From assembly GCA_019359415.1 (NCBI GenBank), contig JAHHHH010000037.1:1-64000 (forward strand): a stretch of 64,000 nucleotides of DNA, in the 5' to 3' direction. Below, piece by piece: positions 1 through 11,193 of the stretch. The notes below the pieces were generated by a model that was not told where the DNA came from, did no database searches, and worked only from the letters and a program-made list of their open reading frames with translations. Origin of the DNA: Iphinoe sp. HA4291-MV1 (GTDB lineage: Bacteria; Cyanobacteriota; Cyanobacteriia; Cyanobacteriales; Nostocaceae). Both the position numbers and the translations under genes were made by a program. Numbering within the stretch: the stretch's first letter is position 1; every line of letters starts with the position of its first letter.

Positions 1-713
1 AGGCAAAGCTGCACTATTGAAACCTCGGTTTTAACTGTCAGGACACTTTAAATGTACCTGCTAATAGGTCGCCTATTGACTGTTTCTTTCATTCGTAGCG
101 GGTGGTGTGCCGCCAGTGCGCCTGCTCCTAAGAGAGACGCACTCGCGTTGGCGCAGCCTGTTAAATACTTAAGCAAGTGGACCGACTAGAAAAAATCGAG
201 CCAGCCTTTATTCAACTAGTGCAAGAAGGCAGCTATGCTGGAGGCAGAAGGAAACAAAGGTTGTACAGTAAGCTTTTTAACCTTTTTTAACTGGATAGTT
301 ATTTCCGCCACGCTGCACTAGTTTTTTCCCAAAATCTATTGTAGAGGTCGTCCCCGCTGGAAGGGCACAGGACTTGCCCTAGCTCGGTTTTTTTGGTGTT
401 GATGTGCTTAGTTTATCACTTCCACTAGTGATTATTACAAATAACTGACATCTTTAATCTAATTTTTTACGAAAAAACCTCGTCCTTGTACTGAATTAAA
501 GTTTTGAAAATTACTATTTTCAAATAAAAATGCTGGAACCTTAGTAAAGTCCAGCTTTTAGCCATGACATAAACAAAAATAATTGTTGAAAAACAATTTA
601 AAGAATTCAAGTAGTTTTGTTTTCTTCCTGGTATACCAGCGATTAGTCTGAAGAAATAAGGGCAGATTTTTTCTGTATCTAGTTGAACCGCACTAGTTTT
701 CTATATTCAATAC
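1..713. other. Intergenic region without a recognisable gene
   Basis: I find no convincing gene here. A 37-residue open stretch on the plus strand (177-290, GTG start) has ordinary-looking composition but matches nothing I recognise and may be a gene remnant. Positions near 135-162 hold a CGCACTCGCG-type dispersed repeat fragment also found near 55.1 kb. A hairpin with a T-run near 354-394 is listed separately. The rest is AT-rich. Confidence 0.5.
354..394 (+). terminator. Possible rho-independent terminator
   Basis: AGGGCA (362-367) pairs with TGCCCT (375-380). A weaker outer CCG/CGG pairing extends the stem, and seven T residues follow at 388-394. It would end a rightward transcript, yet no intact plus-strand gene lies upstream in the window, so it may belong to a remnant or a small RNA. 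Confidence 0.4.
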
Positions 714-5516: not shown

Positions 5517-6389
5517 TCAAGCAGCACAACAAATAGGGGCAGGTTTGAAACCTGCCCCCATGTCTTCTGATATTCTCCTTCCAACAGATGCTGCTACAAG
5601 CCTTAAGCTATGAACCAAATTCACCATATCTTCTAAAGACAGCGCTTGACGTGCGTCAGAAACAGATTTTTCTGGTTCTGGGTGACACTCAATTATCAAC
5701 CCATCTGCCCCACAAGCCACAGCCGCTTTGGCGACAGGTGCCACGAGTTCTCGTTTACCGACTGCATGAGATGGGTCTACAATCACAGGTAAGTGAGTTA
5801 TCTGCTTGAGAACTGCCACTGCTCCCAAATCTAGTACGTTGCGGGTGTAATTATCGAAGCTGCGGATACCTCGTTCGCATAGCACGACATCAGGATTTCC
5901 GTGACTTAAGATGTATTCAGCTGCCATAACGAATTCTTCAATTGTCGCTGCTAAGCCACGTTTGAGAAGTATCGGCTTACCCGCTTGTCCTAATGCTTTA
6001 AGTAAGTCAAAGTTTTGCATATTGCGGCTACCCACCTGAAGCATATCAACATGGGCAGCGATCGCTTCTATTTGAGAAATTGACATGACTTCGGTGACGA
6101 CTGGGATATTGTGATGCGATTGCACTTGAGCCAAAATTTCCAGTCCTTCTTCTCCCATTCCCTGAAAAGCGTAGGGAGAAGTGCGAGGTTTATAGACACC
6201 GCCACGTAACGCCTGTATGGGTGCAGCAGATAGCTTTTGGGCTATTGTTTCCATTTGTTCTGCGCTTTCCACAGCACAAGGTCCACCGATAATTACCAGC
6301 TCTGTACCACCAAAGGCAACTTTCTTTGAAAGATTAACGATTGTTTGATGGTGAGGATGAGATTTTGCAGCTAGTTTAGCATTGTTCAT
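5517..6389 (-). CDS. aroF: 3-deoxy-7-phosphoheptulonate (DAHP) synthase
   Basis: Condenses phosphoenolpyruvate and erythrose 4-phosphate, the first step of the shikimate pathway. It is the short KDO8P-synthase-like type (about 275 residues before its tail). Motifs: IGGPCAVES, RGGVYKPRTSPYAFQG, LLKRGLAATIEE, LCERGIRSF, VDPSHAVGKRELV and IECHPEPEKSVSD, carrying the usual metal and substrate residues. GGAG lies 9 nt before the ATG. The last about 14 residues (GAGFKPAP region) are encoded by a palindromic dispersed repeat that supplies a new C terminus. The gene is preceded by a roughly 350-nt leader with a leader peptide and two terminators, so it is very likely controlled by transcription attenuation. 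The gene symbol varies between annotations (aroF, aroG, aroA-beta type). Confidence 0.95.
   Translation of the reverse strand: MNNAKLAAKSHPHHQTIVNLSKKVAFGGTELVIIGGPCAVESAEQMETIAQKLSAAPIQALRGGVYKPRTSPYAFQGMGEEGLEILAQVQSHHNIPVVTEVMSISQIEAIAAHVDMLQVGSRNMQNFDLLKALGQAGKPILLKRGLAATIEEFVMAAEYILSHGNPDVVLCERGIRSFDNYTRNVLDLGAVAVLKQITHLPVIVDPSHAVGKRELVAPVAKAAVACGADGLIIECHPEPEKSVSDARQALSLEDMVNLVHSLRLVAASVGRRISEDMGAGFKPAPICCAA
5536..5558. repeat. Palindromic repeat inside the end of the DAHP synthase gene
   Basis: Eleven-base arms GGGGCAGGTTT and AAACCTGCCCC flank a single G, forming a perfect hairpin. It lies inside the reading frame and encodes the final GFKPAP-type residues. I recall this palindrome as a common intergenic repeat in cyanobacteria. 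Confidence 0.75.
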
Positions 6390-6441: not shown

Positions 6442-6474
6442 AAAAAAGCCCGGAACCTTTGCTGTTCCGGGCTT
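6442..6474 (-). terminator. Attenuator terminator in the DAHP synthase leader (3:4 hairpin)
   Basis: On the minus strand an 11-bp perfect stem (AAGCCCGGAAC / GTTCCGGGCTT) with a 7-nt loop is followed at once by six U residues. It lies 53 nt before the start codon and after the leader peptide stop, so it must be read through for the gene to be expressed. Its 5' arm can instead pair with GTTCTGGG at 6503-6510. Confidence 0.9.
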
Positions 6475-6519
6475 GAAAGATTCATCGACATGACGCTATC
6501 TACCCAGAACTTGTTCGGG
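6449..6519 (-). promoter_or_regulatory. Alternative hairpins of a ribosome-mediated attenuator
   Basis: Four segments on the minus strand can pair in two exclusive ways. Segment 1 CCCGAAC (6513-6519) pairs with segment 2 GTTCTGGG (6503-6510, one bulged U). Segment 2 pairs over all eight bases (one G-U) with segment 3 CCCGGAAC (6464-6471), which blocks segment 3 from the terminator with segment 4 GTTCCGGG (6449-6456). A ribosome stalled at the aromatic codons up to Trp14 would cover segment 1, free segment 2 and prevent termination. Confidence 0.85.
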
Positions 6520-6562
6520 ACCAAAAATAAAAGCCATAAAACCAGCTACTGAAATAGGTCAT
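6500..6562 (-). CDS. Aromatic leader peptide (Phe/Tyr/Trp-rich)
   Basis: Twenty-codon open frame reading MTYFSSWFYGFYFWSRTSSG then TAG, with four Phe, three Tyr and two Trp codons, ending 110 nt before the DAHP synthase gene. AAGGAG at 6578-6583 is the ribosome site. Spacing to the ATG is 15 nt and to the adjacent in-frame GTG (6563-6565) 12 nt, so initiation could be at either. The composition matches the three end products of the pathway. By analogy with enterobacterial trp and phe leaders it should act as a translation sensor rather than as a product. Codons 14-16 (TGG TCC CGA) overlap RNA segment 1, and codons 18-20 overlap segment 2 of the attenuator. Confidence 0.85.
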   Translation of the reverse strand: MTYFSSWFYGFYFWSRTSSG

Positions 6563-6587
6563 CACGATGAAATTTCACTCCTTAAAA

Positions 6588-6617
6588 AACAAAAACCGCA
6601 GAGTATGCTCTGCGGTT
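6588..6617 (-). terminator. Upstream terminator hairpin in the DAHP synthase leader
   Basis: Ten-base perfect arms AACCGCAGAG and CTCTGCGGTT with a 4-nt loop, followed by a U-rich tract (UUUUUGUUUUUU). It precedes the leader peptide ribosome site by only a few bases, so no separate promoter fits between them and the transcript must pass through it. Its outermost 5' four bases also belong to the upstream helix at 6614-6664. Confidence 0.85.
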
Positions 6618-6664
6618 CACCGGGCAGTTTCCATGATAGAAACTCGATTCACTCCCGGTGAACC
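6614..6664 (-). ncRNA. Structured 5' leader element, unknown class (riboswitch-like geometry)
   Basis: On the minus strand GGTTCACCGGG (6654-6664) pairs perfectly with CCCGGTGAACC (6614-6624). Inside is a 6-bp helix AGTTTC/GAAACT with a 7-nt loop and an asymmetric 9/1 internal loop. The 3' arm shares its last four bases with the base of the next terminator, so forming this helix fully would shorten that terminator from 10 to 6 bp and detach it from the U-tract. I do not recognise a known riboswitch class. It could be a regulatory leader or the body of a terminated small RNA. Confidence 0.65.
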
Positions 6665-6752
6665 ACCCTAAACCAAAAATAAAAATAGGAATTATTGCAA
6701 ATCATTTGTCAGGCGTTTTGTTGAATAACTTAATTTACACTCATGTTTTATG

Positions 6753-6781
6753 ACGCTAGCATAGAAAACGAGTCGCGTCAA
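6753..6781 (-). promoter_or_regulatory. Candidate promoter for the DAHP synthase leader
   Basis: TTGACG (6776-6781) and TAGCGT (6753-6758) on the minus strand are separated by exactly 17 nt, and a TG dinucleotide one base before the -10 gives an extended -10. Initiation would fall near 6746, about 360 nt before the start codon, leaving room for both terminator hairpins and the leader peptide. Confidence 0.55.
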
Positions 6782-10531: not shown

Positions 10532-10837
10532 TTAATCAAACTGAGAGATAACAACCTCTCTATCAGGGAAGCGAGCAATGATTATAAGACTTCCTCCAAG
10601 AGATTTGATGTATCGCGAAAGCGTAGATATTTGAATATCGTCTTGATGCTCAATCTTTGAAAGCGCCGATTGTACGACTCCCATATCCTTTGCAACATCA
10701 CTTTGAGTTAGTGCAAAGGATTCTCGAAGCTCTGAAAGTGTTAGGTGGAGCAGCGCAAGGTTTGCTTGCATCTGACTTTCTGCCCGTTGTTCAGGAGTCA
10801 TTCTTTTGCGAAGTTCATTAAATGGCTTCGTCTTCAT
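10532..10837 (-). CDS. higA: HigA-type antitoxin, XRE helix-turn-helix
   Basis: 101 residues with a Cro/C1-type helix-turn-helix near 55-75 (LTQSDVAKDMGVVQSALSKIE), the DNA-binding antitoxin of a type II pair. Its start codon overlaps the toxin stop by 4 nt (ATGA), the toxin-first order typical of HigBA. The protein should neutralise the toxin and autoregulate the operon. The N terminus has a basic helix, and the C terminus is a short beta segment (SLIIIARFPDREVVI). Confidence 0.88.
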   Translation of the reverse strand: MKTKPFNELRKRMTPEQRAESQMQANLALLHLTLSELRESFALTQSDVAKDMGVVQSALSKIEHQDDIQISTLSRYIKSLGGSLIIIARFPDREVVISQFD

Positions 10838-11193
10838 AGAAACCCTTCTGTTTTTAATTCCTCTAAGTGTTCGTCATACAGCGTATCTGCCTTTGGAAGA
10901 TTTTCCTCGTACCATCGAGCGTCTCCTCCCTTGTTTCCTCCAAAAAGAAGAATGGCGACTCTTGTTGGATCAAATGCATAGAGTATTCGGTACGGTTCTC
11001 CTTTGTGCTGTACTCTCAACTCTCTGATATGGGAATGACGTGAGCCGTTAATTTTTGAACTGTAGGGAAAAGAAAGCTTTGGTCCTCGTATCTCAAGCAG
11101 TCGCACGACTGCATCGATTGCAATCTGGGTGCTTTCTTCTAATTCAACCCACCACGCTTCAAACTCGTTCGTGAATTCTACCTCCCATGTCAT
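10834..11193 (-). CDS. higB: HigB/Gp49-type RelE-superfamily toxin
   Basis: 119-residue toxin of the RelE/ParE superfamily (HigB/Gp49 type, formerly DUF891), expected to cleave mRNA on the ribosome. Typical features are WEVEFTNEFEAWW at the N terminus, the basic strand SRHSHIRELRVQHKGEPYRILYAFDP in the centre (residues about 52-77) and ILLFGGNKGGDARWYEE near 83. It is the promoter-proximal gene of the pair. The intergenic region behind it (11194-11488) lacks genes. Confidence 0.88.
   Translation of the reverse strand: MTWEVEFTNEFEAWWVELEESTQIAIDAVVRLLEIRGPKLSFPYSSKINGSRHSHIRELRVQHKGEPYRILYAFDPTRVAILLFGGNKGGDARWYEENLPKADTLYDEHLEELKTEGFL

Follow-up and report, generated by a model that had tools for sequence, protein, structure and literature searches.

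The DAHP synthase gene in the window, the whole stretch of 64,000 nucleotides that was analysed, is very probably regulated by two ribosome-mediated transcription attenuators, which stand in tandem on one transcript and would sense the charging of Phe, Tyr and Trp tRNAs. The original prediction placed a single aromatic leader with mutually exclusive antiterminator and terminator before this gene, and both the sequence and the comparison with relatives support it. The leader proposed at this locus is real, but it is half of the system, belonging to the second of two predicted attenuators in tandem.

The gene (5517..6389, minus strand) encodes a type I beta DAHP synthase of 290 aa, with 405 bits to NF006421 and 368 bits to TIGR01361. 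Its only domain is PF00793, plus NeuB, without the ferredoxin-like domain PF18152, and its closest solved chain is 1vs1. The genome (G000, 7.36 Mb) had five further full-length paralogs, and a sixth additional match is a 44-residue piece at a contig end. PF18152 was present in all five paralogs, and the window enzyme is the only one of the six without it. A simple scan found no aromatic leader with hairpin upstream of the five paralogs: one of them (L003) follows a 21-codon ORF with six aromatics, but no hairpin was there, and the other four had nothing. Elsewhere in the window, two overlapping small ORFs (10532-11193, minus strand) resemble by eye a RelE/HigB-type toxin and an XRE antitoxin.

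Leader peptide 2, the one already predicted, is MTYFSSWFYGFYFWSRTSSG followed by TAG (6500..6562, minus strand, ATG at 6562-6560 and stop TAG at 6502-6500), and an in-frame GTG at 6565 is an alternative start. The sequence bears out its 20 codons on the minus strand with nine Phe, Tyr or Trp. The AAGGAG named ahead of it, a putative ribosome binding site, is present at 6578..6583 (read 6583-6578 on the minus strand) but lies 15 nt from the ATG (12 nt from the GTG), which is a long Shine-Dalgarno spacing; an AGGAG was found 9-15 nt upstream of the usual leader 2 start in 75 of 95 regions. The location given for the whole element, 6449..6562, was correct, but the U-run of terminator 2 extends to 6442, so that span ends just short of it. 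The leader 2 region folds with a z of -4.84, and none of 200 shuffles was equally good. When the intergenic sequence was dinucleotide-shuffled 3000 times, 85 of the shuffles contained a short ORF with at least nine aromatic codons. The peptide by itself is thus only moderately unlikely, and it is its conservation that decides.

Leader peptide 1, MICNNSYFYFWFRVVHRE followed by TGA (6649..6705, minus strand), was overlooked by the original prediction. It contains six consecutive aromatic codons, Y F Y F W F, and a run of this length came up in 7 of the 3000 shuffled sequences. It has its own alternative hairpins and a terminator ending at 6591, and its region folds better than 200 of 200 shuffles (z -4.09). 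The aromatic run alone was rejected as something special, with 23 matches to four Phe/Tyr codons followed by Trp in the genome versus 18 for the reversed control; among 22 placeable matches, four fell in an ORF that has a start codon and at most 45 codons, and leader 1 is one of these four.

Upstream of leader 1 there is a predicted promoter (6753..6781, minus strand), composed of a -35 TTGACG (6781-6776), a spacer of 17 nt and an extended -10 TGCTAGCGT with TAGCGT at 6758-6753; transcription is predicted to start near 6746. The pattern TTGAC[AG]-16..18-TAnnnT was found upstream of leader 1 in 88 of the 95 regions with at least 140 nt, versus 0.7% of mononucleotide shuffles, and most commonly ends 47-49 nt before the leader 1 ATG. 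Because this conserved promoter-like site is upstream of both leaders, both are placed on one predicted transcript.

Orthologs were taken from 80 named loci (the best 80 of 552, in which the nearest named relatives were Brasilonema and Scytonema, with which the host probably belongs) and from 31 of 60 relatives. From 110 upstream regions we left out four with less than 150 nt upstream, one masked region (L013) and eight exact repeats, and 97 distinct regions could be assessed; the patterns for calling leaders were written after a first look at the regions. Leader 1 was present in 97 of 97, and so was leader 2, 95 times by pattern and twice by eye, in L020, where it ends SSR, and in L114, where no stop codon stands behind arm 2 and the peptide extends to 44 aa. 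Phe, Tyr and Trp were all present in leader 1 of 96 of 97 regions and in leader 2 of all 95 counted, and Trp stood at the leader 1 core in 95 of 97. The enrichment of the leader ORF in the regulated amino acids, which marks an attenuator of the trp/phe type, is therefore found for both leaders in all 97 regions. From the stop of leader 1 to that of leader 2 the distance was 142-361 nt, commonest 146, and from the leader 2 stop to the gene 75-352 nt.

The reading frames were kept as well. The ORF block of leader 1 was 54, 57, 60 or 63 nt, a multiple of three in 49 of 49 aligned sequences, and the frame of leader 2 was kept in 48 of 49, the exception (L113) having an intact ORF of 19 codons that is shifted in the alignment. 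Unlike these ORFs, the spacers between the blocks vary freely in length. In distant relatives the aromatic composition is kept while the order drifts (AYWLFSFFFF, RYFYFYFFW), which is expected for codon reading. Two loci (L142 and L136) have an earlier stop codon in leader 1, behind YP or YK, and a ribosome there would still cover the antiterminator arm.

An unequal codon use was also observed in the leaders. The ratio of TTT to the other Phe codon was 124 to 2 in leader 1 and 143 to 28 in leader 2, compared with 423 to 184 in the window genes and 87 to 179 in the DAHP synthase genes, and Tyr is TAC or TAT according to position (window 6705-6500, minus strand). This is a constraint on synonymous sites, although one tRNA presumably reads both codons of Phe, and likewise of Tyr.

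The four segments claimed for element 2, with 1:2, 2:3 and 3:4 pairings, could be located on the minus strand as described. Arm 1 is CCCGAAC (6513..6519), in which the consensus fold pairs CCC.G with C.GGG, and arm 2, GTTCTGGGT (6502..6510), is the 5' strand of the antiterminator in the 2:3 helix. Arm 3, AGCCCGGAAC (6464..6473), is common to antiterminator 2 and terminator 2, and arm 4, GTTCCGGGCT (6456-6447), forms the 3:4 helix and, with the U-run, occupies 6442..6456. The 2:3 helix was 94.6% paired, and 95.4% in a wider set with compensatory change in 3 of 9 pairs; it had 9 double-change cells versus 1.2 in shuffles in an alignment not fitted to the helix, and its count of pair types was not above shuffles (428 of 500 as high). 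The 3:4 helix was 89.2% paired, and 93.3% in the wider set with 4 of 10 pairs compensatory; in an alignment fitted to the helix it had 21 double-change cells versus 5.8 in shuffles. Arms 2 and 3 change jointly in distant relatives, for example in L184, L181 and L114. The check proposed earlier, a search in other cyanobacteria for a conserved aromatic ORF and covarying arms, thus returned the ORF in 97 of 97 regions together with covariation. A long-range helix of leader 2 between the start region, TTCATCGTGATGAC (6558..6571), and the segment behind the stop, GTCATGTCGATGAA (6481..6494), is partially supported and may form: its sub-helices were paired in 71-88% of cells, and the structure with terminator 2 included had 41 double changes versus 17.9 in shuffles.

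In element 1, the 5' arm of antiterminator 1, GGTTCACCGGG (6654..6664, minus strand), lies within the end of leader 1 and has two alternative partners. One is GTGAATC (6646..6652), which overlaps the leader 1 stop codon and pairs with GGTTCAC in a competing 1:2 hairpin. The other is the 3' arm CCCGGTGAACC (6614..6624), and this pairing takes AACC from terminator 1, AACCGCAGAG-CATA-CTCTGCGGTT with its U-run (6591..6617). Antiterminator 1 was paired in 96.5% of cells, and in 95.3% in the wider set that included more distant relatives, and in both sets 4 of its 11 pairs showed compensatory change. In that wider set, whose alignment was fitted to the tested structure, the whole of element 1 had 36 double-change cells, where shuffles gave 10.4 and slid controls no more than 12. 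The 1:2 hairpin was paired in 97.4% of cells and 96.3% in a second set, with little covariation. In two sets, of 49 and of 35 distinct sequences, the first 8 pairs of terminator 1 were 100% paired; 6 of these 8 pairs were invariant, and with a terminator so nearly invariant little covariation can come from it.

Mutually exclusive antiterminator and U-run terminator, with an arm at the end of the ORF, as in attenuators of the trp/phe type, are therefore present here. The overlap of antiterminator and terminator is only 4 nt in element 1 and 9 nt in element 2. Hand-made consensus sequences of the two elements align with common GTTC..CCGGG and CCCGG..GAAC pieces, which is at most a suggestion of a common origin.

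Covariance models of both elements were run on 386 cyanobacterial genomes, drawn as a sample. There were matches to model 1 in 38 of them and to model 2 in 37, while a DAHP synthase ortholog (E at most 1e-105) was found in 38. Among these 38 genomes with the gene, 37 had model 1, 37 had model 2 and 36 had both. The matched genome identifiers agree across the model and gene searches, the genomes not listed being assumed the same. Each model gave one match per genome; a weak second copy may have escaped notice, since scoring covered only 7-8 of the first-look candidates in each genome. At 72 loci covering all matched genomes, the gene or a piece of it adjoins each match, so elements and gene are linked one to one. 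The matches also lie in further families and orders within the class (f29, f30, f33, f37).

A few genomes depart from the common arrangement. G161 (L145) had the gene with element 1 only, and G187 (L175) with element 2 only. In G034:C48 (L185), element 1 runs directly into the interior of a DAHP synthase remnant, at about residue 46; element 2 and the start of the gene have thus been lost by deletion. In another locus, L231 (G418:C1:3950000-3957500), a segment of about 5.8 kb divides the DAHP synthase ortholog in two, with a 425-residue Phage_integrase ORF at one edge of the segment and identical YAFQG-coding DNA at both ends. We take this segment to resemble the excision elements of heterocyst-forming cyanobacteria.

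Switching was modelled with a nascent-RNA fold, in which the transcript reaches up to arm 3 only and a ribosome footprint of -18 to +12 is imposed. With the ribosome on the core aromatic codons, antiterminator 1 formed in 49 of 49 sequences at each codon tested, and for antiterminator 2 the count varied between codons from 33 to 48 of 48. A ribosome placed on the stop codon let neither antiterminator form in this fold (0), which is a statement of geometry because the imposed footprint covers the arm. In leader 2 of the window, the antiterminator reached 0.86-0.99 only when the ribosome was stalled in the first aromatic cluster (W F Y), and stalls at later codons gave about 0. In the same nascent fold of E. 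coli trpL, the expected number of 2:3 pairs was 9.63 for a ribosome on the Trp codons and 3.2 for one on the stop.

In the equilibrium model with no ribosome, antiterminator 1 formed in 49 of 49 sequences; antiterminator 2 did so in 32 of 48, the window sequence not being among them. Termination by default without translation through a protective 1:2 hairpin, a secondary feature, was not seen in this model. When the complete RNA was folded at equilibrium, terminator 2 was favoured despite a stalled ribosome. For at least one core codon, the antiterminator outweighed the terminator in 23 of 48 sequences for leader 2 and 43 of 49 for leader 1; for a stall on the last core codon the numbers were 1 of 48 and 10 of 49, respectively. 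The trpL leader shows the same bias to the terminator, and the complete-leader fold was therefore rejected as an uninformative test of switching; its outcome still counts against the model.

We propose that the system would work as follows. Each leader ORF holds Phe, Tyr and Trp codons, and when charged tRNA is short for any of the three, the leading ribosome would stall on those codons. The stall would leave the arm at the ORF end free, the antiterminator (a:a' in the first element, 2:3 in the second) would form, and RNA polymerase would pass. If all three amino acids are plentiful, the ribosome would arrive at the stop codon and cover the arm, and the terminator would form, so that termination would respond to the aromatic supply. 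The polymerase would have to pass both terminators before the gene, and for this reason basal read-through would be about the product of the two. It is possible, though doubtful, that each element responds to all three aromatics and that the two act multiplicatively, so that a synthase that has lost its allosteric domain is controlled by translation rather than by enzyme feedback. As part of this tentative extension, the leader may also read translation capacity together with tRNA charge, because the two elements differ without a ribosome, the first being open and the second closed in the window.

Stalling could also have another cause. As for TnaC, the conserved peptides with their FYFW core might arrest translation from within the exit tunnel, possibly together with a free aromatic amino acid, and not for lack of charged tRNA. 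In the closer set leader 1 indeed keeps the order Y F Y F W and leader 2 the order FYFW, at about 90-98% per position (n = 97). However, distant relatives reorder the aromatics while the content stays, Phe and Tyr are swapped at several positions, and the arm begins directly behind the codons, which fits a moving ribosome, so we regard such arrest as quite improbable. A structured RNA independent of translation, riboswitch or T-box-like, that binds an aromatic ligand or tRNA would look identical in its alternative helices and terminators alone, and the model lets antiterminator 1 form with no ribosome present. Against such an RNA speak the indels that keep the frame, the aromatic codons and the constant position of the stop codons next to the arm, and no Rfam family was found at gathering score: the 64-kb window had 0 matches, and the best for the leader region, rnk_pseudo, was sub-threshold (E 0.35, 20.7 bits versus 55 needed). 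We give this explanation hardly any weight.

It might also be that only one element regulates, the other being a relic, an ordinary terminator or the end of a small RNA. The genomes with the first element only (G161) or the second only (G187) are in line with this, as is the lost stop codon of leader 2 in L114; but both elements are kept in 36 of 38 genomes with the gene, with frame keeping and covariation in both, and a single working element is therefore unlikely. Tandem attenuation by codon reading remains the preferred explanation.

If it works as we suppose, it would be a conserved ribosome-mediated attenuation in cyanobacteria, with two elements in tandem and one common set of signals. 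The single-element genomes G161 and G187 are ready natural comparisons. It would also be a way to regulate the entry step of the shikimate pathway when the enzyme is without a regulatory domain, and might be useful for engineering aromatic production in cyanobacteria. In a literature search covering open-licence papers we found no described case of ribosome-mediated attenuation in cyanobacteria.

In the classic trp and pheA attenuation of E. coli, a leader ORF rich in the regulated amino acid is followed by arms with 1:2, 2:3 and 3:4 pairings and a terminator with U-run. The present locus, judged from its sequence, appears to fit this description: it has aromatic short ORFs, alternative arms and U-runs, and trpL gave the same nascent-fold pattern. 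It is unlike the E. coli leaders in having two elements in series, each with all three aromatics, before the first enzyme of the pathway and in cyanobacteria, and in a first element that the model leaves open when no ribosome is present.

The original prediction of enterobacterial-type attenuation on the first pathway enzyme is thus supported, but attenuation of DAHP synthase has precedents in two other lineages, as described in PMC11802643 and PMC8632094. In C. glutamicum, a leader with Phe-Tyr-Phe (aroR) precedes the DAHP synthase operon (aroF) and is released on Phe limitation (Neshat et al. 2014, as quoted in PMC11802643); this is one leader, with no Trp in the quoted motif and in an actinobacterium, in contrast to the tandem here. 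In Acholeplasma, uORFC-13-1 upstream of aroF is a predicted uORF with Phe codons, terminator and promoter, with 24 representatives that have at least one Phe; as described, it is one element in another lineage (PMC8632094). Tandem attenuators are described for mgtCBR of Salmonella, where two short ORFs in one leader mRNA read different signals, ATP and proline, which the authors call a singular example (PMC3641672). Unlike those, both cyanobacterial leaders would read the same three amino acids, each with its own intrinsic terminator. The variant proposed here combines two attenuators in series, three amino acids and the first enzyme of the pathway, in cyanobacteria.
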